DNA of 52,822 bases, taken from contig DJLT01000122.1 of the NCBI GenBank assembly GCA_002435145.1, positions 34,829 through 87,650 on the forward strand, in the 5' to 3' direction. The position numbers and the translations under genes are program-made. The notes beneath the pieces were generated by a model that was given only the letters and a program-made list of their open reading frames with translations, ran no database searches and was not told where the DNA came from. Source of the stretch: Neptuniibacter sp. UBA6509 (GTDB taxonomy: Bacteria > Pseudomonadota > Gammaproteobacteria > Pseudomonadales > Balneatricaceae). Below are positions 12,398-20,194 of this stretch, in pieces (within the stretch, counting starts at the first letter, position 1; every line of letters begins with the position of its first letter).

Positions 12398-12961
12398 ATG
12401 GGTCTAGAAGCAGCAGCGGAACACCTCAAAAGCTTACAAGCTGAACAAGCCTTACATCAGCAAGATTCTTCTGAAGGCAGAAGAAGCAACCAGGAAGAAG
12501 AGGTTTATCATCAATGGGCTACATTCAAAGTTGATAATGAACTTTATGGCGTTGATGTAGTTCAAGTAAAAGAAGTTCTTCGTTACAGTGCTATTACACC
12601 TGTCCCGGGCTCTGATCACTTTATCCTTGGTATTATCAATCTCCGAGGCAATGTAGTTACGGTTATCGATACCCGTCAGATGTTTGGGCTTACTCCTCAT
12701 GCACCTGACGACGATACGCGTATTATTGTTGTTGAGTACAATGAGCAAGAGGTTGTAGGTCTAGTTGTTGATAGCGTTGATGAAGTAATTAACTTACCTC
12801 AAAATGATATTGATCGCGCACCTAATGCCACAGGCGAAGAAACAACTAAGCGTTTTGTAATGGGTGTTTCTTACTACAATACAATTCTGATTATTCTACT
12901 AGATCTGTTGAAAATGTTACAAAGTATTACGCCAATCGACACTGGCGATGATGCATTTTAG
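12398..12961 (+). CDS. CheW-domain chemotaxis coupling protein
   Basis: 187 residues: a polar, charged N-terminal tail of about 35 residues, then a complete CheW domain (WATFKVDNELYGVDVVQVKEVL, ITPVPGSDHFILGIINLRGNVVTVIDTR, GLVVDSVDEVINL). CheW couples chemoreceptors to CheA. No other chemotaxis genes adjoin it, so it is an orphan cheW, as often seen in marine gammaproteobacteria. The 218 bp before it hold no gene; I see no clear flagellar-type promoter. A hairpin terminator follows. Confidence 0.9.
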   Translation: MGLEAAAEHLKSLQAEQALHQQDSSEGRRSNQEEEVYHQWATFKVDNELYGVDVVQVKEVLRYSAITPVPGSDHFILGIINLRGNVVTVIDTRQMFGLTPHAPDDDTRIIVVEYNEQEVVGLVVDSVDEVINLPQNDIDRAPNATGEETTKRFVMGVSYYNTILIILLDLLKMLQSITPIDTGDDAF

Positions 12962-12993
12962 TTATTGCATTCAATAGGTTAGATTCACAATTT

Positions 12994-13019
12994 AAGGCTG
13001 CATTTGCAGCCTTTTTTTT
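12994..13019 (+). terminator. intrinsic terminator after cheW
   Basis: AAGGCTGCA and TGCAGCCTT form a short-looped hairpin followed by a run of T, 35 bp after the cheW stop. Confidence 0.9.
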
Positions 13020-13034
13020 ATTTTCGCTTTCAAC

Positions 13035-13192
13035 TTACCGCCCTATATGTACCGCTATTTTCTCTTACCGCCTGAGTGTCTATGCTCCCAACAAAACACG
13101 CCTTGCCAAGTTCCTAGACAAAGACGTCCCTGAAAAATTGGGATTGAAAGTGACGTCGCCGTTAATGCTGATTTAATATGTGCTGGCATATC
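13035..13192 (-). pseudogene. 3' half of a disrupted yjbQ-family gene
   Basis: On the minus strand, from GATATGCC at 13192 downward, the frame reads [20 protein letters not shown] and on through [24 protein letters not shown], the C-terminal half of the YjbQ (UPF0047) family. The expected last residues are lost to a TAG at 13055. Adding one base in the A4 run (13058-13061) restores KIAVHIGR followed by TAA at 13035, which matches the length and pattern of family C-termini. The matching N-terminal half lies 6.75 kb away at 19946-20194. I read this as the distal part of one gene split by an insertion and then decayed. Confidence 0.75.
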
Positions 13193-13273
13193 CGTTATAC
13201 GGATGAGTTGTTCTTCATGTGGACGCCTGAAAACCTTACCAATTAAGCTTTTTACTTTTTTACGTATGTCCAT
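13055..13273 (-). CDS. chimeric open frame: truncated small gene fused to a yjbQ remnant
   Basis: A 72-codon frame with a strong ribosome site (AAAGGAGAGGG, 2-3 bp before ATG). The first 27 residues ([14 protein letters not shown], then a basic segment ending LIRIT) have no relation to YjbQ. From residue 28 the frame runs straight into the YjbQ C-terminal half. The best reading is a gene that began 45 bp downstream of the intact yjbQ copy and was cut when the block joined the older yjbQ gene. The protein may be made but is unlikely to work as YjbQ, since it lacks the N-terminal half with the conserved histidine. Confidence 0.5.
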
Positions 13274-13318
13274 AACCCTCTCCTTTTTGTGGACCTTTAA
13301 CCTTGTAAAGTGTCCATA

Positions 13319-13738
13319 TCATTCTCCGTTAATCGTAACTACTAGAGTCCTCTTTCCTCCGTGGTTTCTATGTTCGCAAAGGTAAACCCCCTGCCATGTT
13401 CCGAGATTCAATCTTCCGTCGGTGATTGGAATACTTAAGCTGTTTCCAAGCAAACTAGACTTGATGTGGGCGGGTAAATCGTCGCTACCTTCATAAATAT
13501 GCGTGTAGTAAGGCTGATTTTCTGGAACAAGCCTATTAAAAAAGCTATCAAAGTCGTCCCGTACTGATGGGTCCGCATTCTCATTAAGAGTGATAGATGC
13601 AGATGTATGCTTCAGTAAAATATTCAGAATGCCAATTTTGACGGACGATATTTCAGGGACAAGAGATACTAGTTCCTCAGTAACTAAATGAAAGCCCCTC
13701 TCGCGTGCACGCAGACTAACCTCATTTTGCAACCACAT
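13319..13738 (-). CDS. yjbQ: YjbQ (UPF0047) family protein, intact copy
   Basis: A 139-residue complete member of the YjbQ family and the right length. It follows E. coli YjbQ closely by eye: ARERGFHLVTEELV, LLKHTSASITLNENADPSVR with the conserved histidine and serines, YEGSDDLPAHIKSSLLGNSL, and GTWQGVYLCEHRNHGGKR. E. coli YjbQ shows weak thiamine-phosphate synthase activity; the real role is unsettled. It starts 7 bp after the preceding small gene. It resembles E. coli YjbQ more than the disrupted copy flanking this block does, so it may have replaced that copy functionally. Confidence 0.9.
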   Translation of the reverse strand: MWLQNEVSLRARERGFHLVTEELVSLVPEISSVKIGILNILLKHTSASITLNENADPSVRDDFDSFFNRLVPENQPYYTHIYEGSDDLPAHIKSSLLGNSLSIPITDGRLNLGTWQGVYLCEHRNHGGKRTLVVTINGE

Positions 13739-13745
13739 AAATATG

Positions 13746-14003
13746 CTACCTAGCTATCTGGATTACGTTATCAAATCGTCTCAACTCTTTCTCAAGTTGA
13801 GCAATTCGTTCAATCAACATAAGTTCACGATTGAGCGACTCATGGTACAGCTCTCGGTAATGAGCTGTTTTGCTTCTCTCTTTTTGTAACTGAGCAGTCT
13901 TAGATGGAGCTTTTTTACTCAATACCTCACTAACAGTGTCAATTGCCGTAATGAGTTCAGCAAAAGATGAGCGTGATCTCTTGATCGATTCACATACTAT
14001 CAA
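13746..14003 (-). CDS. hypothetical coiled-coil protein, start uncertain
   Basis: The open frame reaches back to a GTG at 14042, but that codon lies in the 3' arm of a strong terminator, so translation probably begins later. TTG at 14003 has AGAAGG about 5 bp upstream; no ATG is available. The product is then about 85 residues: a serine-rich helix, then a charged heptad-like helix (ERSKTAHYRELYHESLNREL, followed by an LIERIAQLEKEL segment). I recognise no family. It could be a remnant of a larger gene. It directly precedes yjbQ. Confidence 0.45.
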   Translation of the reverse strand: MIVCESIKRSRSSFAELITAIDTVSEVLSKKAPSKTAQLQKERSKTAHYRELYHESLNRELMLIERIAQLEKELRRFDNVIQIAR

Positions 14004-14027
14004 AAAGCCTTCTTTTGAAACTAGCTC

Positions 14028-14067
14028 AAAAAAAGGCTGCACCTAAAACAGTCAATTAGGTACAGCC
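14028..14067 (-). terminator. intrinsic terminator after the second maoP-like gene
   Basis: On the minus strand GGCTGTACCTAA pairs with TTAGGTGCAGCC around a short loop and is followed by seven T. It lies about 60 bp after the stop at 14129 and ends transcription before the coiled-coil gene and yjbQ, unless there is read-through. Confidence 0.88.
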
Positions 14068-14128
14068 AATATCAGAAAAACACTTGTTGGTTTCTCTGAT
14101 GAAGCACTTATTACTCCATGAACGAACT

Positions 14129-14476
14129 TTACATTTCCTCCTCCGACAAAACGGACTGACTAAGTCTCTTTTTGTTAAAGCTTACGGTATTAGATGCAGC
14201 TGTAACTTTGCTCTGATACCTCTGCCACAGACGTTCATGTACAGTCTCAGCTTGCTTCTTACCAGAACAAAAAGCGACAAACTCCCTTTCAGCCTCACCT
14301 CTTGGTTTTCTTAAACCAGTAGCAAGTTCTTGGTAAGCATTACCTTTCAAATCAAGCAAACCAGCCTGCTCAATCGTAAACTCTCCACTTTTTAAGAAAC
14401 CATATGGAAAGTGCACTTTGTCTTCAAAACGCTTATCTGTACGAAAGCAATCATGAAACTTAGTTTCGAGTTCCAT
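14129..14476 (-). CDS. MaoP-like DUF413 protein, second copy
   Basis: 115 residues from ATG 14476, which has AAGGGG 7 bp upstream; the upstream TTG has no such site. The core aligns by eye with E. coli MaoP (YifE, 112 residues): HFPYGFLKSGEFTIEQAGLL, then AYQELATGLRKPRGEAEREFVAFCSG and ERLWQRYQSK. MaoP with its site maoS organises the Ori macrodomain in E. coli. This copy is 3.6 kb from the hdfR-linked copy, on the same strand, and shares its 60-bp upstream element. The tail after residue 95 (SFNKKRLSQSVLSEEEM) is unlike the other copy. Confidence 0.85.
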   Translation of the reverse strand: MELETKFHDCFRTDKRFEDKVHFPYGFLKSGEFTIEQAGLLDLKGNAYQELATGLRKPRGEAEREFVAFCSGKKQAETVHERLWQRYQSKVTAASNTVSFNKKRLSQSVLSEEEM

Positions 14477-14505
14477 CACCAACCCCTTAACTATGTCTAT
14501 TTTCT

Positions 14506-14565
14506 GCAAGTATTAATGCAGAATCATTTAAGGTAAAACGATGTTTTTTTATCGTTGTTAATCGA
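14506..14565. repeat. upstream element shared by both maoP-like genes, copy 1
   Basis: A 60-bp stretch that matches 18390-18448 in the same orientation, starting GCAA.TATTAA.GCAG and ending AATCGA. The central 20 bp (14534-14553) are identical between copies. Within it AACGAT-N8-ATCGTT is a perfect dyad of the T-N11-A kind bound by LysR-type regulators. It begins 30 bp upstream of the maoP-like start at 14476, so it is a probable operator/promoter, with HdfR as the obvious candidate regulator; a maoS-like role is also possible. Confidence 0.75.
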
Positions 14566-14590
14566 AAATACTTATTGCTAAATCAACGCC

Positions 14591-14821
14591 TTAGAAGTCG
14601 TAGTTCCCATAACTCCAGTCACTATTTTCACGTAAACTTTTCTTAGCTAATCGCTCTTCGATATCTCTCCAACGAGTCTTCCTTTTATTACGCTTATTCT
14701 CTTCTTGGGCCTGATCCCAATCTTCATCATGCTTTCTATGCCTAAATGTTTTCCTGAATGGGGAGCCGCGTTCATCAGGTTCATAGTCATAATCTTCATC
14801 AAAAAAGTCTTTCTTATTCAT
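14591..14821 (-). CDS. small highly charged protein, perhaps PA3496-like
   Basis: 76 residues from ATG 14821 (an upstream GTG at 14848 is in frame but falls in a terminator arm). The N-terminus is acidic and aromatic (FFDEDYDYEPDER) and the C-terminal half is strongly basic and helical (NKRKTRWRDIEERLAKKSL). The basic-acidic layout with RDIEERL resembles small proteins annotated as the PA3496 family, but I hold that lightly. No signal peptide or membrane segment. It stands between the terminator of the amidohydrolase-QEGLA gene and the second maoP-like gene, so it needs its own promoter or read-through. Confidence 0.6.
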   Translation of the reverse strand: MNKKDFFDEDYDYEPDERGSPFRKTFRHRKHDEDWDQAQEENKRNKRKTRWRDIEERLAKKSLRENSDWSYGNYDF

Positions 14822-14834
14822 GTCATCTTTCTCG

Positions 14835-14869
14835 AAAAAGGGCAGCACCCCTTACCGAAAGGTGCTGCC
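14835..14869 (-). terminator. intrinsic terminator after the amidohydrolase-QEGLA gene
   Basis: A 9-bp perfect stem (GGCAGCACC / GGTGCTGCC) with an 11-nt loop and a CTTTTTC tail on the minus strand, starting 8 bp after the stop codon. Confidence 0.85.
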
Positions 14870-14877
14870 AAAGGATC

Positions 14878-16926
14878 CTATGCAATGCCTCGTAAGTCAC
14901 CGCACAAGTTATCCATTAAGCAAACAGGAGCTGTAGGCTTAATAGAGGAAACAAGGTAATTCAAAATATCTGAGACAAATTCGGGCTTAGCTAGGTATTC
15001 AGGCACAAACTGTGGCTTAGCAATAAGCTCTCTTTCTATCAGTTCGTTAATGATACCGAGGTAAGCAAAACCCGTTTTACCAACATATAAGCTGCTGATA
15101 TCACAATCCTTATAAAGCCTTAGGGCCTCACTAACACCTCGAAGGTACAAATAGTCCTTAGTGAAACCACCGCTACGATGAACGCGGACAGATAACTTAA
15201 ATGCATCATCTGTTGGCATTTTCATCTCTTCGTGTAAGTAGCTATAGGTATGACGAAAATCACCATACTTAAGCATCTCCTTCACAGCGATAACTCTGAG
15301 CGCTAGCCCCTGCAATCGTGTTAAGCACATATTTCCGCTATGGAATTCGTTAAGGATTGCTAACCCTTCTTGAGTCATCGTGTTACCAGGTAGACCCAAT
15401 GAAAAAACTTTTAAAGGCTGAGATGCAGCATTTAAAGTAGTCGCCATATGCACGCCTAATTCATGGTGCGCTAATGCGTTTACTTCTGTTTCTGTTAATA
15501 AAGCGTCTTTATTCACGAACAAGGTACGCTTTGCACCGGAAACCATTGCGGAAGCAACTATTTTTGAGGAAAGCTCAACTTTGCACTTCATACCCCAATC
15601 GGAAGCCTTCAAACGGAAATACTCCACGGCTTCAGCGGCATCTATACGCTTATCAGTTTCCGGATCATATTTAGCCGCGTGTAAAAGGAATTGAGCATTG
15701 GCCTCATCTTCTAAACTTGGTTCGCCGTAATACCGCAATGAGCTATAAACAAACTGGGAACTACCCGCATTTACCAATAAATCGATCTTGCTAGATAAAC
15801 CATCGATCACTTGGCAATACATCTTCTGAATACCAACGTCTCGAATTTTATCTACAGGTAAACGATAGAGTTTTTCTCGAAACTCATAAGGATTAATAGC
15901 CAAAGGTTTGTATCTAAATTCAGGTTGATAATTACCTTTCTTCGCTAAGAACTTACGTTTTTCCTGCGCAATATTGACCGGATTAATATAATTGAGGGTC
16001 TCCATACCCTTAGCTAATTTAGCCAGTTCTTTATCCACTTTGATAATTGCTGGATCCAATTTGGACGACAGCATATCTAAGCGGCGCAACCTCGGTTTTT
16101 TAGAATGCGCTCTTGCGAAATATGCCCCTATATCAGTTAGAACATGTTTAAAGCCGGACTTTAATTCATCCAAAACAATTGGATATTTTTCTCCAGAGAG
16201 TTCATCCATGAAAACTTTTTTGACTTCACAAGGAATGACTAAGGTATTTTCGTATCGACTGTTAATGTGAGAAATAAGATAGCCACGCCCATAGAAAACA
16301 TCATCCAAGTTTGCCGTAACAGTATCATTTGATAACTCAAGCTTACTCATTGAAGAGCGGAACTTATCAAGTACGCGTCCCCAACGATCAATATCAATTT
16401 GCTCAGTCCCAACGTTAAAAGTAGGCGTATCCCTTTCAATTCGTTTGTAATTGTAGGAATGCACGTCAAATACGATACAAGCACCAAAAAGTTCTTCCAC
16501 TTTTGCGACTAACGCATCCAATACGCGGTAAAAAGCTTTGTGTTTCTCTATACTTTTTCGTCTCAAGCTCTTTGGCAGACTCTTCACCCAAACATCTTTT
16601 CCCCAAGCCTTGGTATAGATGCACCTTGCCAACGGCCTATTGAGGTCGTACTCATATCTAGAATCTTTACCAATTAATGTAATGGGCATAGATTCAATCA
16701 ACTCGCCCGTGTAAGGGTCTTCTTCATAAAGCCTGTTTTCGTCAGATAATGAACAAAATGACACCAACTCTTGACTAAAATTGTGGCCGTCATGAACAGC
16801 AGCACAAACCGCTGGGGTATATGCCTCAACTTTCAAAGAAAAGGCTCCATCTTGATGCTCACATTCGAAGAAAGCACCTTCAGAGATTAATTTTAAAATC
16901 TCTTTTTCAGACAGTTTCTGCATCAT
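14878..16926 (-). CDS. N-formylglutamate amidohydrolase / QEGLA (DUF1704) metallopeptidase fusion
   Basis: 682 residues with two domains. Residues 30-290 resemble N-formylglutamate amidohydrolase, with AAVHDGHNF (H45, H48) and FDVHSYN (D154, H156) as likely metal ligands. Residues 290-682 are the 'flavohemoglobin expression-modulating QEGLA motif' family (DUF1704), with zincin motif HELGVH (H488, E489, H493; HExxxH type) and TQEGLA (E520 as third ligand). DUF1704 also covers the animal tubulin carboxypeptidase MATCAP. A hydrolase acting on a Glu- or Tyr-ended peptide or conjugate is plausible but inferred. Its start overlaps the GshB-like gene by 20 bp, so the two are translated together. AAGGTAATAG precedes the start. 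Confidence 0.82.
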   Translation of the reverse strand: MMQKLSEKEILKLISEGAFFECEHQDGAFSLKVEAYTPAVCAAVHDGHNFSQELVSFCSLSDENRLYEEDPYTGELIESMPITLIGKDSRYEYDLNRPLARCIYTKAWGKDVWVKSLPKSLRRKSIEKHKAFYRVLDALVAKVEELFGACIVFDVHSYNYKRIERDTPTFNVGTEQIDIDRWGRVLDKFRSSMSKLELSNDTVTANLDDVFYGRGYLISHINSRYENTLVIPCEVKKVFMDELSGEKYPIVLDELKSGFKHVLTDIGAYFARAHSKKPRLRRLDMLSSKLDPAIIKVDKELAKLAKGMETLNYINPVNIAQEKRKFLAKKGNYQPEFRYKPLAINPYEFREKLYRLPVDKIRDVGIQKMYCQVIDGLSSKIDLLVNAGSSQFVYSSLRYYGEPSLEDEANAQFLLHAAKYDPETDKRIDAAEAVEYFRLKASDWGMKCKVELSSKIVASAMVSGAKRTLFVNKDALLTETEVNALAHHELGVHMATTLNAASQPLKVFSLGLPGNTMTQEGLAILNEFHSGNMCLTRLQGLALRVIAVKEMLKYGDFRHTYSYLHEEMKMPTDDAFKLSVRVHRSGGFTKDYLYLRGVSEALRLYKDCDISSLYVGKTGFAYLGIINELIERELIAKPQFVPEYLAKPEFVSDILNYLVSSIKPTAPVCLMDNLCGDLRGIA

Positions 16927-17944
16927 CTATTACCTTTCTGAAAGCGCTCTTACGCTCCAAAACCATCTCTTTAGCTGAGACAACATTCTCAATAAAGTTG
17001 ATAACTTTGCATTGCAGTTTCACTCTATTAAGACGATTAATACGGGTGATACCACCTGGGCTAAGTACGTTCACCTCGATCAACTTTCCATTAATCACAT
17101 CGAGCCCAACAAAATAGAGCCCATCACGAACCAATTGCGGTCCTATAGCGCGACAAAGCTCTTTCTCTTCCTTAGTAAGATGGTGCTTAACCTCTTTACC
17201 CCCTGCGTGGATATTAGAACGGACATCATCTCCAGCAGGGACGCGACGCATAGCGCCTATAGGCTCACCATTCAACATAAGAATGCGCACATCACCTTGA
17301 TCAGCACCTGTCACATACTCTTGTAAAATGACATAGTTGCTCGCATCACCTGACCCTATATAGAAATCCAATAACGATCTGAAGTTCTGTCTCGCATTTT
17401 TCTCAATGACGATAACGCCCTGACCACCAAACCCATTTAGAGGCTTCATAATCATTTTTTCAGTCGGCGAATCCTTTAACACTTGTTCTAGGTATTCACG
17501 ATTTTTTGATACATGAGTCGCAGGTACAAATCGGCATGCATCACCACTAAATGAAGCTGGATAAAGTTTATTGTTTGCAACGCGCAGACCATCAATATCA
17601 TTCATAATGAACACATCGTTTCGAACCGAATCTAAAAAGTTCAGCGCCACTGTATCCAGAGGTGGATTAGCACGCATAATGATCACGTCAAAACCAGCTA
17701 ACGGCAGTTTGCACCGTTTAAATTCAGCCTTACGATAAAAAGACGGTATATTGCTGCTCAGCTTTGTATCGCGCTTCAAAACATTACAAAAAGCATGCGC
17801 CTCGCTATCCCTGACAGTCAGACTATTTGGTGTAGTCAGAGCGACTGTATGGCCTCTAGAAGCAGCCTCATGGATCATCCTTAAAGTGGTGTCACTTTCA
17901 GGTGAAATTCGTTCCCATGGATACATCAAAAAGCAAATTTTCAT
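16907..17944 (-). CDS. GshB-like ATP-grasp ligase
   Basis: 345-residue ATP-grasp protein aligning by eye along the whole of E. coli glutathione synthetase (315 residues): the N-terminal SDTTLRMIHEAASRGH, DVIIMRANPPLDT, the ATP lysine region MIMKPLNGFGGQGV, QEYVTGADQGDVRILMLNGE, GAMRRVPAGDDVRSN.HAGG and the metal-binding FVGLDVINGKLIEVNVLSP. It joins an amine (glycine in GshB) to a carboxylate using ATP. Tight coupling to the amidohydrolase-QEGLA gene suggests a different substrate from glutathione, for a peptide that the partner trims. A true GshB elsewhere in the genome is expected but unseen. Confidence 0.85.
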   Translation of the reverse strand: MKICFLMYPWERISPESDTTLRMIHEAASRGHTVALTTPNSLTVRDSEAHAFCNVLKRDTKLSSNIPSFYRKAEFKRCKLPLAGFDVIIMRANPPLDTVALNFLDSVRNDVFIMNDIDGLRVANNKLYPASFSGDACRFVPATHVSKNREYLEQVLKDSPTEKMIMKPLNGFGGQGVIVIEKNARQNFRSLLDFYIGSGDASNYVILQEYVTGADQGDVRILMLNGEPIGAMRRVPAGDDVRSNIHAGGKEVKHHLTKEEKELCRAIGPQLVRDGLYFVGLDVINGKLIEVNVLSPGGITRINRLNRVKLQCKVINFIENVVSAKEMVLERKSAFRKVIDDAETV

Positions 17945-17991
17945 TTCTACACCAAATATCGATTTAAAATTTTAATCAGTTAAAAAAGATC

Positions 17992-18041
17992 AAAAAAAAA
18001 GCAGCCTATGTAAAAGAAAACTCTCGTTCATAGGCGGCTTT
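17992..18041 (-). terminator. terminator or attenuator between maoP and the GshB-like gene
   Basis: On the minus strand AAAGC-GCCTATG pairs with CATAGGC-GCTTT around an 18-nt loop and is followed by nine T. It lies 25 bp after the maoP-like stop and 48 bp before the GshB-like start. Either it isolates the two genes or it acts as a partial terminator feeding the downstream pair. Confidence 0.85.
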
Positions 18042-18065
18042 AGTCTTAAGTTATTTAAAATCTAA

Positions 18066-18335
18066 CTACAAACCAGCAGCCTTAGAGACATAATGGAACC
18101 ACGTTCGCTCATGAATATTTGAAGGTAGTTTCCCCCCCTTACAAAAATCCACAAACTGCCTTTCAATAAGCACAATCGGTTCTCTATGCCCTTTAGCGAA
18201 AGCAGAATACGCATGACCATGTTTTTCGAGTAATGCCGCCTCTTCTGCGGAAAAGGCATCACTTTTACAGAACCCATCTGGATAATTTTGATGATCACTG
18301 AAACTACTTTCAGTCAAAAACGCTACTTGAAACAT
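18066..18335 (-). CDS. maoP: MaoP-like DUF413 protein, hdfR-linked copy
   Basis: 89 residues from ATG 18335 (TTG 18347 with AAAGGG upstream is an alternative). The DUF413 core is clear: YPDGFCKSDAFSAEEAALLE, KHGHAYSAFAKGHREP, ERQFVDFCKGG, ERTWFHYV. It lies divergent from hdfR, as yifE/maoP lies next to hdfR in E. coli, which makes this the orthologous pair. It lacks the C-terminal tail of E. coli MaoP and of the second copy. In E. coli MaoP acts with the maoS site upstream of its own gene to organise the Ori macrodomain. A terminator follows. Confidence 0.87.
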   Translation of the reverse strand: MFQVAFLTESSFSDHQNYPDGFCKSDAFSAEEAALLEKHGHAYSAFAKGHREPIVLIERQFVDFCKGGKLPSNIHERTWFHYVSKAAGL

Positions 18336-18389
18336 TGTTAGACCCAAACACCCTTTAAAGGAGCCAAATTGGCTTGTTAACCTTCAGTT

Positions 18390-18448
18390 GCAATTATTAA
18401 CGCAGTGTTATTAACTGTAAAACGATGTTTTTTTATCATTTCAATCGA
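18390..18448. repeat. upstream element shared by both maoP-like genes, copy 2 (hdfR-maoP intergenic)
   Basis: 59 bp nearly identical to 14506-14565, with the same central 20 bp at 18418-18437 and the dyad AACGAT-N8-ATCATT (one mismatch relative to copy 1). It fills most of the space between the divergent maoP-like gene and hdfR, ending 20 bp before the hdfR ATG, where a LysR-type regulator normally binds to control itself and the divergent gene. In E. coli the maoS site also lies in this interval. Confidence 0.75.
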
Positions 18449-18467
18449 TTTTTTTTATGGAAGAATT

Positions 18468-19346
18468 ATGGATATAGGTTTGCTTAGAACGTTCCTAGAG
18501 GTTTCTAAAACAAGGCACTTTGGGAAAACAGCGGAAAACTTATACCTAACGCAGTCAGCGGTCAGCTTTCGGATACGTCAGTTAGAAGAGTTAGTTGGGC
18601 TGCCTTTATTTTCTAGGCAACGAAATAACATTATGCTGACAAGCGCCGGGGAACGGCTAATTCCTCATGCAGAGAACATTCTTGCTTCGTGGCAGATTGC
18701 ACTTCAGGATGTAGGTCTTCCGGAACAGCAAGAGATGCATCTATCTCTAGGCGGTATTTCTAATTTATGGGGAACCTTTCTTCAATCCACTCTCCCCAAA
18801 TTGGCCGAAGCTTTTCCTCAGATATCTATAAGAACGGAAATCAACTCTCATTTAGAGCTAACTAGAGCGTTAATCGCTGGAAGGCTAGATATGGCTGTAG
18901 TGCTGGACCCTCCTAGTTTGGCCGAGCTTAAGACCAATAAAATTGGTCAAATTGAGCTCGCTTTAGTGACCAATAAAATGGGGGCTAAATTCAGCGATAT
19001 TTATGATATTGGTTATGTATTTGTAGATTGGGGCACAGCATTCAATATGAAGCATGCAAAGCTATTTAAAAAACCAGTAGCACCTGTACTGCATACCGAA
19101 CAAAGCCAAATAGCATTAGAATTTTTATTAACAAACGGGGGAGCTGCTTTCTTGCCGATGAGCCAATTAGAAACCTATCTTCAAGAAGGACAATTGCATT
19201 TGATAGAAAGGGTTAAAACCGTGAAACGTTCTGTGTACGCCGTATATAGTAAAAATGCTCCAGAGCACCTCAATATAGAACCAATTATCGAGCTACTCTA
19301 TGAGGTAGAATTGAAGCCCGAAACAACTCTTCAGCCGTTAGAATAA
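18468..19346 (+). CDS. hdfR: LysR-family regulator HdfR
   Basis: 292 residues from ATG 18468, with GGAAG before it. An N-terminal winged helix (LLRTFLEVSKTRHFGKTAEN, LTQSAVSFRIRQLEELVGLPLFSR) precedes a LysR effector domain. The protein resembles HdfR throughout by eye, and the divergent maoP neighbour is the known HdfR context. E. coli HdfR represses flhDC and other targets. Likely targets here are its own promoter, maoP and, through the shared element, the second maoP-like gene. No flagellar genes are in the window. Confidence 0.85.
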   Translation: MDIGLLRTFLEVSKTRHFGKTAENLYLTQSAVSFRIRQLEELVGLPLFSRQRNNIMLTSAGERLIPHAENILASWQIALQDVGLPEQQEMHLSLGGISNLWGTFLQSTLPKLAEAFPQISIRTEINSHLELTRALIAGRLDMAVVLDPPSLAELKTNKIGQIELALVTNKMGAKFSDIYDIGYVFVDWGTAFNMKHAKLFKKPVAPVLHTEQSQIALEFLLTNGGAAFLPMSQLETYLQEGQLHLIERVKTVKRSVYAVYSKNAPEHLNIEPIIELLYEVELKPETTLQPLE

Positions 19347-19364
19347 TGAGTTTGATACAGAATA

Positions 19365-19392
19365 ACTACTATCTTATTAACAAGATAGTAGT
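19365..19392. repeat. perfect 11-bp inverted repeat after hdfR
   Basis: ACTACTATCTT and AAGATAGTAGT separated by ATTAAC, 19 bp after the hdfR stop. No T-run follows on either strand, so it is not a classical terminator; it may protect the 3' end or bind a protein. The remaining sequence to 19626 shows nothing else that I can name. Confidence 0.6.
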
Positions 19393-19626
19393 ATCCGAAT
19401 TACCACTTTGTACTCTGCTAGCTTAGCTCTCTCAATCAGCTAATTAGTTATAGTCGCTTCGCCTTCCCGCTAGTTCGAAATCAGGTAACTGATCTGCTTT
19501 CGAAAGCAATTAATGTATTGGGGATTATTACTAGGCTTGTTCAAATCAACCAGCGATTTTCATATAACGTCTAGCTTCCTGAAGCTTAGGCATTTGATAA
19601 ACCAGCCTCACTTATAGGATAACCAG

Positions 19627-19899
19627 ATGAAAACCATTAAAGCTCTTGCATCTGATGATCAGGCTATTTCACTTCCAAAAGACTTTCTCAACCACTTAGG
19701 TGCGAAAGATGGTGAAAGTATTGCTATCGATTTATCTGCTTCCTCATCAATCACACTTCATCCTCATATACATTGTGAAGCTCAAACTATAGAGGAATTA
19801 TTTTCACAAACAGAAGAGATTGAGGCAGCTGGAGATAACGAAACAGTTCAAATGCTTAATTCGATTCGACAGATCTTAGCTGAGTCAATGTCCATATAA
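19627..19899 (+). CDS. orphan AbrB/MazE-type DNA-binding domain protein
   Basis: 90 residues. The first 50 have the swapped-hairpin AbrB/SpoVT pattern seen in antitoxins of the MazE and VapB kinds (ISLPKDFLNHLGAKDGESIAIDL, ITLHPH). The C-terminal 40 residues are an acidic helix (TIEELFSQTEEIEAAGDNET) that could bind a partner. AGGATAACCAG precedes the ATG. No toxin gene follows: the next sequence is the disrupted yjbQ half on the other strand. It is either a free regulator or an antitoxin whose toxin was lost, perhaps at the block edge 46 bp away. Confidence 0.65.
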   Translation: MKTIKALASDDQAISLPKDFLNHLGAKDGESIAIDLSASSSITLHPHIHCEAQTIEELFSQTEEIEAAGDNETVQMLNSIRQILAESMSI

Positions 19900-19930
19900 A
19901 TCTTATATGCACATACTCGATATTAATAAC

Positions 19931-20194
19931 TTATATAACCCGTACATCCAAGCCTTCATAGACATGGGTATACAAACGATCCCCTTCAGGCACTAATCTG
20001 TTAATCCAGTTTTCTAAATCAGCTTTAGCGCTTGGATCTGCATTCTCCTGTATTACTAAGCTTGCACTCGTATGCTGTATGTGGAGATTACAGATGCCAC
20101 TATCAATTTTAGCTTGTGATACTAAATCTTCTAACAGCGCAGTGAATTCTACAAGCCCTTGTTTATGAGTAGTAACAGTAAGAATTTCAACCAT
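19931..20194 (-). pseudogene. 5' half of a disrupted yjbQ-family gene
   Basis: 87 codons. Residues 1-83 are the YjbQ N-terminal half (HIQHTSASLVIQENADPSAK, WINRLVPEGDRLYTHVYEGLD), then VRVI and a stop. Family members continue with DDMPAHIK after EG.D. That missing half, in the same reading direction, begins at 13192. Joining GGCTTGGAT here to GATATGCC there restores EGLDDMPAHIK in frame. The start codon abuts the mdh terminator, whose 3' arm AAGGGG would have to serve as the ribosome site. Whether a truncated protein is made is unknown. Confidence 0.78.

Follow-up and report, generated by a model that had tools for sequence, protein, structure and literature searches.

A block that splits yjbQ and carries a complete yjbQ of its own in a Neptuniibacter genome: probable remnant of a gin-type site-specific element

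Results

The split yjbQ gene and its uninterrupted counterparts

We analyzed a stretch of 52,822 nucleotides (nt) from the draft genome of Neptuniibacter sp. UBA6509 (134 contigs, 91.5% complete; contig DJLT01000122.1, positions 34,829 to 87,650), which as a whole is referred to as the window. In it, a gene of the yjbQ (UPF0047) family is divided at EGLD|DMPAH by a block of 6,753 bases (13192-19944), within which lies a second, complete yjbQ (Table 1; the N and C sides of the block are those adjoining the respective halves of the split gene). All three sequences exceed the curated cut-off of PF01894, the UPF0047/YjbQ profile (27 bits), the N half covering profile positions 3-65, and they make up the UPF0047 content of the genome, namely two fragments and one complete copy. 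Neither half matched any other Pfam family. Among 51 yjbQ proteins chosen by hand, the best matches of both halves were the intact genes of relatives, four of which were included (65-72% for the N half and 75-84% for the C half). Upon alignment with eight intact genes, the break fell between the two D codons of the motif EGxDDMPAH, at which the halves abut without a gap in relatives, and the C half showed a one-column gap against all eight. The original prediction, made from the sequence alone, had proposed one yjbQ split by an inserted block, with a one-base loss in the distal half; aligning the half-frames to the family, as it suggested, thus confirmed both points.

The same prediction held that an uninterrupted yjbQ in the mdh-cheW interval of relatives would prove the insertion. 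The mdh protein was searched in 38 related genomes, of which 29 matched, and the region beyond mdh was examined in 16 of the 29. An intact yjbQ without the block lies between cheW and mdh in seven of the ten same-genus genomes (G001, G002, G003, G004, G006, G009, and G010), as foreseen, and in two of the six other family genomes (G017 and G018). Among the remaining three genus members, one contig is too short (G007) and two genomes have neither cheW nor yjbQ beside mdh (G008 and G005). Elsewhere in the family, cheW adjoins mdh with no yjbQ between them (G022 and G014), a yjbQ of another type lies 2.6 kb from mdh (G012), or the stretch holds mdh only (G020). Relatives keeping the halves as separate genes, named beforehand as an outcome that would refute the split, were not seen among those examined. 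The names mdh, tus, tatD, mgtE, and katG were assigned by reading the proteins and are presumptive, unlike the identity of cheW, which was tested.

Table 1. Features of the split yjbQ locus (window coordinates; G007 and G009 are genomes of the same genus)
Feature	Position	Strand	Basis
Host yjbQ, C half	13055..13191	-	Frame broken near end; ORF PF01894 51.7 bits
C-side end, CCGTA plus six nt TAACGG	13192..13202	-	Pattern in 5/5 C-side junctions available
TGGACA, C side	13267..13272	-	80 nt from end in 5/5 elements
TGGACA, C side	13311..13316	-	124 nt from end; at 124-125 nt in 3/5 elements
Complete element-borne yjbQ	13319..13738	-	PF01894 138 bits; TIGR00149 150 bits; 63-68% to three other element copies
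ginD 3' remnant	13746..13991	-	98-aa ORF spans 13746-14042, homologous in this part only; 48% to Halomonas ginD (alignment), 50-55% to three ginD genes (tblastn)
Second DUF413 protein	14129..14509	-	PF04219 83.2 bits
85-aa ORF	14591..14848	-	No Pfam match; 62-73% to G007 and G009 copies, same order
N-formylglutamate amidohydrolase-like plus MATCAP fusion	14878..16926	-	PF05013 50.7 bits, PF08014 314.6 bits; 84% to G009
Glutathione-synthetase-like ATP-grasp ligase	16907..17944	-	PF02955 190.5 bits; 94-95% to G007 and G009
DUF413 protein	18066..18347	-	PF04219 73.8 bits
LysR-type regulator	18405..19346	+	PF00126 67.4 bits; 84-87% to G009 and G007 copies
90-aa ORF, weakly MazE/AbrB-like	19627..19899	+	PF04014 16.4 bits, below cut-off of 24.7
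TGGACA, N side	19889..19894	-	50-51 nt from end in 5/5 elements
N-side end, TACGGGTTATATA	19932..19944	-	Directly after same yjbQ codon in 5/5 N-side junctions available
Host yjbQ, N half	19946..20194	-	83 codons, ends EGLD; open frame continues to 19931; PF01894 62.4 bits
ORF, open reading frame; aa, amino acids.

The same arrangement in other bacteria

When the inner yjbQ was used as a query, 518 relatives were obtained; the 80 best loci, together with 29 earlier ones, made up a set of 109 that was inspected. A second, C-half yjbQ together with a relative of the 98-aa ORF was found in three of these 109, belonging to the Pseudomonadales metagenome-assembled genome SP163 (G490, locus L157), Cellvibrio sp. 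OA-2007 (G489, L182), and Halomonas salinarum G5-11 (G488, L184). In each, the gene order is that of the window, i.e., a small gene, a complete yjbQ, and a C half, and each genome holds exactly three UPF0047 sequences, one complete, one C half, and one N half, which runs as far as profile position 67. In Halomonas all three occur on one contig and strand, over 21 kb; a separate contig carries the N half in Cellvibrio and in SP163.

In Halomonas, the small gene preceding yjbQ is the last of an operon. Four genes of this element, encoding 474, 651 (or 637), 658, and 122 aa, stand in a row before yjbQ, and they align in order to an operon on a Pseudomonas amygdali plasmid (30, 23, 31, and 35%); we call them ginABCD after the operon of the GInt islands considered below. 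The 98-aa ORF of the window corresponds in part to ginD and is the only ginD match in its genome. This ORF was found in no other of 116 family genomes and in no viral contigs, and Halomonas ginD had no match in phages. A ginD profile matched 17 of 390 order genomes, consisting of the window's own genome, three strong matches (G211, G283, and G368), in all of which a complete yjbQ adjoins ginD, and 13 weaker ones, in which a ginC relative is present with no yjbQ within about 1.5 kb. G283 appears to be SP163 again (yjbQ 100% identical), and it shares a genus handle with G211. The element is therefore represented by six genomes (the window, Halomonas, Cellvibrio, SP163, G211, and G368). In all six, ginD, a remnant in the window, is followed by a complete yjbQ, and in the five others the host yjbQ is cut at the same codon on every available side. 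Relatives of ginC and of yjbQ occur in 202 and 57 plasmid records, respectively; two of the ginC regions were examined.

Four elements contain type I restriction genes (screened at L245, L246, L270, L247, and L248), with HsdM and HsdS in Halomonas, HsdR and HsdM in G211 and Cellvibrio, and HsdR in SP163. The Halomonas element also has a gene for a YgjP-like metallopeptidase. In SP163 (L157, 822-1829), a 335-aa ORF with no Pfam match lies between the element yjbQ and the end, and the start of a resembling frame, followed by apparent insertion-sequence DNA, was seen in G211 (contig C17, 1-900).

Ends of the element

Within the window alone, a search for end repeats gave nothing above shuffles; the ends are recognizable only through comparison with the other elements. 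The sequence GTACGGGTTATATA directly follows the cut codon in all five N-side junctions available, the G368 contig stopping before that point. On the C side, all five available junctions, G211's being absent, show CCGTA, then six nt ending in G, then A(C/T)(A/T)T(G/A)CC. Both ends start with an inverted TACGG, and TGGACA/TGTCCA occurs three times in the block, each time near an end. The six nt are identical on both sides (GTGACG) in SP163 only; in the three others with both sides available, the N-side six fit host codons and the C-side six differ. These features point to a 6-nt exchange region rather than a target duplication, and the suggestion that the ATCC/GGAT shared by the junctions is a target duplication found no support in the four other elements. 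The original prediction was right as to the split but incomplete, since it overlooked the second yjbQ, the mobile-element remnant, and the cutting of the same codon in other bacteria.

Two short frames at the ends (ATG at 13273 and 19907) were considered as truncated genes and rejected, the first ATG lying inside the conserved TGGACA repeat and the second beyond the terminus, where the sequence is variable. On inspection by eye, the palindrome on the C side was also considered as an integron attC site, and this idea was rejected.

Cargo of the window block

From the N side, the block contains the MazE-like ORF, the LysR gene, a DUF413 gene, the glutathione-synthetase-like (GshB) ligase, the amidohydrolase-MATCAP fusion, the 85-aa ORF, a second DUF413 gene, the 98-aa ORF, and the complete yjbQ. 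Positions 14008-19321 are collinear with a stretch of G009 at 75% DNA identity, and with G007 in pieces on two contigs. Each of these genomes has the GshB/MATCAP module next to an mgtE-like gene, which makes the core of the block genus DNA that now occupies a different position. At the mgtE-like locus of the window's own genome, a paralogous LysR gene is instead accompanied by genes of the RimK, AstE/AspA, and zinc-protease types. A terminator-like hairpin lies close to the end of the genus module, near 14008. The MazE-like ORF was found in its own genome only among 116 family and 390 order genomes, and in no plasmids or viral contigs.

Several further observations concern this module. A 28-base near-perfect palindrome (19365-19392) lies between the LysR and MazE-like genes. 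The two diverged DUF413 genes (14129-14509 and 18066-18347) flank the GshB/MATCAP set, as two do on L080 (6243-6593 and 10191-10478), and a DUF413-like gene is also found beside the LysR paralogue at the genome's own mgtE-like locus. The interval between LysR and the mgtE-like gene varies within the genus, holding GshB and the amidohydrolase-MATCAP fusion in G009 and G007, RimK, AstE-type, and zinc-protease genes in the window's own genome, and a DUF413 gene alone in G001 (compared at L140, contig C56 of the own genome, 7405-11272; L080, 4752-11484; and L131). This interval resembles a site at which ATP-grasp ligase modules are exchanged.

The carried yjbQ copies

YjbQ is labeled secondary thiamine-phosphate synthase by NCBIfam (TIGR00149). 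The closest relative of the inner yjbQ, at 70%, is in a genome of another genus. Over the N half, the element yjbQ and the split gene of the same genome are 46% identical in the window, 51% in Halomonas, 77% in Cellvibrio, and 57% in SP163; at such values, the former did not arise as a copy of the latter. In a tree of the 51 proteins, for which 36 of the best 80 loci and 5 of the 29 earlier loci were picked by hand, the six element copies do not group, and a single clade is rejected by the approximately unbiased (AU) test (p = 0.011). The translated host halves of G211 (N side), Halomonas (C side), and Cellvibrio (C side) were left out of account. Support is thin, stars marking 14 of the 48 inner branches. 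The grouping of the SP163 copy with that of G211 is fully supported, the Halomonas copy is placed among Halomonadaceae and a Marinobacterium, with no starred branch, and the position of the window copy is not settled.

Discussion

Origin of the block

The block is probably (about 0.8) an immobilised remnant of a gin-operon, GInt-like site-specific element that targeted one codon of yjbQ and supplied a substitute yjbQ. Members of this clade would insert at one conserved codon position of the gene; in the fullest of those seen, that of Halomonas, three recombinase-type genes and a small fourth precede a complete yjbQ. Insertion would both break the host's yjbQ and replace it in one step. Exchange probably takes place via the six nt between the short inverted repeats at the ends. 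The window copy would have lost ginABC and the start of ginD, the genus-typical LysR/DUF413/GshB/MATCAP module occupies that side, and the old yjbQ halves are decaying. We infer past mobility, functional replacement, and the order of loss in this scheme. Given that other bacteria have elements of a similar kind in this very position, the arrangement looks like a strategy and not an accident.

Several findings weigh against this interpretation. No ginABC, and no other recombinase-like gene among the ORFs tested, was found in the block, and the window copy therefore cannot show mobility. Even in Halomonas, the Pfam phage integrase profile matched GinA above its cut-off, GinC below it, and GinB not at all. 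Both ends lie on one contig only in Halomonas and the window, because the halves in Cellvibrio and SP163 are on different contigs and neither G211's C side nor G368's N side is available. The terminus pattern was found in no other of 369 class genomes and in no viral contigs (a reversed control pattern matched two genomes, once each), so the clade is rare. A simple scan for promoter-like sites in 12950-14200 found none, vs. 2.8 expected in shuffles. Lastly, the carried yjbQ copies do not form a single clade, which argues against their having simply descended with the element.

The last point also favors a rival reading, in which the element is real and targets yjbQ, with the inner yjbQ as a passenger that plays no role in sparing the host. 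This possibility may further draw on the fact that YjbQ function is known here from a family label only, and that the replacement role is read from sequence, not expression. Nevertheless, we regard it as unlikely, since a complete yjbQ occupies the same place after ginD in all six genomes, is the sole complete copy in the four of four genomes scanned for UPF0047, and is free of stops and frameshifts in all six copies of the tree.

It is very improbable that plain genus DNA landed in yjbQ by illegitimate recombination and that the second yjbQ is there by chance. Most of the block is indeed 75% identical to a G009 stretch located elsewhere, no recombinase gene is left, and no end repeat stands out from the window alone; yet both ends match the elements of other bacteria to the base and at the same codon, and the ginD remnant adjoins yjbQ as in five other genomes. 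Still less credible is that recombination between two yjbQ paralogues produced the halves. A complete paralogue does lie only 127 bases from the C half, but it is complete and diverged over the N half, both halves are of the genus type, neither contains chimeric sequence that we could see, and the same codon is cut in other bacteria. An assembly chimera, conceivable in a draft genome, is equally implausible given that both junctions lie within one 90-kb contig, the ends match other assemblies, and only one base of yjbQ is missing.

Implications

If the block is such a remnant, the clade may live by gene-for-gene replacement, its elements always bringing a complete foreign yjbQ so that the host is never without YjbQ function, swapping yjbQ with their hosts, and ferrying versions of a core gene between genera, with loss of the recombinases, as in the window copy, fixing the swap. 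Because the carried copies are not one clade, repeated exchange with hosts is suggested; we consider this wider proposal evenly balanced between true and false. The locus points to a second means by which an integrative element could strike a coding sequence without cost, namely by bringing a whole substitute as opposed to sparing or rebuilding the gene end, and it would offer a concrete route for the replacement of core genes by foreign versions. In addition, the ends and the target codon are precisely defined, and other core genes can be screened for the signature seen here, one complete copy plus two half copies of a gene.

Comparison with known systems

No report of yjbQ as an integration target was found in our literature searches; among 25 of the 27 papers naming yjbQ or UPF0047, none does so in its title or abstract, and yjbQ is absent from the main texts of the two studies closest to our element (Bardaji et al. 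2017, PMC5385486; Idola et al. 2023, PMC10214605). According to the description in PMC5385486, GInts are islands carrying ginABCD, whose families share 24-40% identity; their cargo extends from ginD onward, the targeted gene usually still yields a functional product or is hit at its end, and excision as a circle needs all four genes. The Halomonas operon agrees with that description in gene order, sizes, and low between-family identity, and would likewise comprise three genes of the integrase type plus a small one. Site specificity is likewise high, and restriction systems and genes of related bacteria are likewise carried as cargo. The differences from the GInts so described are that the bulk of the Halomonas cargo lies upstream of ginA, with only yjbQ between ginD and the end, and that the yjbQ clade cuts its target mid-gene and carries a whole substitute. 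Flanking direct imperfect repeats of the GInt type (10-17 nt) do not stand out in the window, and among the elements only SP163 has identical nt, six in number, on both sides. Lacking ginABC and retaining only the 3' part of ginD, the window block is a gin-less remnant related to GInts, not a GInt.

Partial likenesses to other systems are also evident. In tRNA/tmRNA islands, as presented for Islander (PMC4383910), insertion splits a gene, the island restores it, and a displaced fragment is left behind; in contrast, the yjbQ elements bring in a protein gene that is complete but diverged, and they leave the two old halves in place. Tn554, as described in PMC10214605, resembles them in being site-specific, with several recombinases, a small TnpC-like protein, and a six-base footprint, and differs in that no whole-target gene is mentioned in that description. 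Strand-biased circularizing elements (SEs), in the account of PMC10214605, keep a split attB at their two ends and have imperfect inverted end repeats and, next to the ends, six nt that resemble the host on one side only. Correspondingly, the yjbQ elements keep the host codon on the N side, have inverted TACGG at both ends, and show six nt on the C side, the host-like spacer being judged from codons. The SE gene set is given there as intA-tfp-intB-srap. Since the yjbQ clade shows features of both GInts and SEs, it bears on the relationship between the two.

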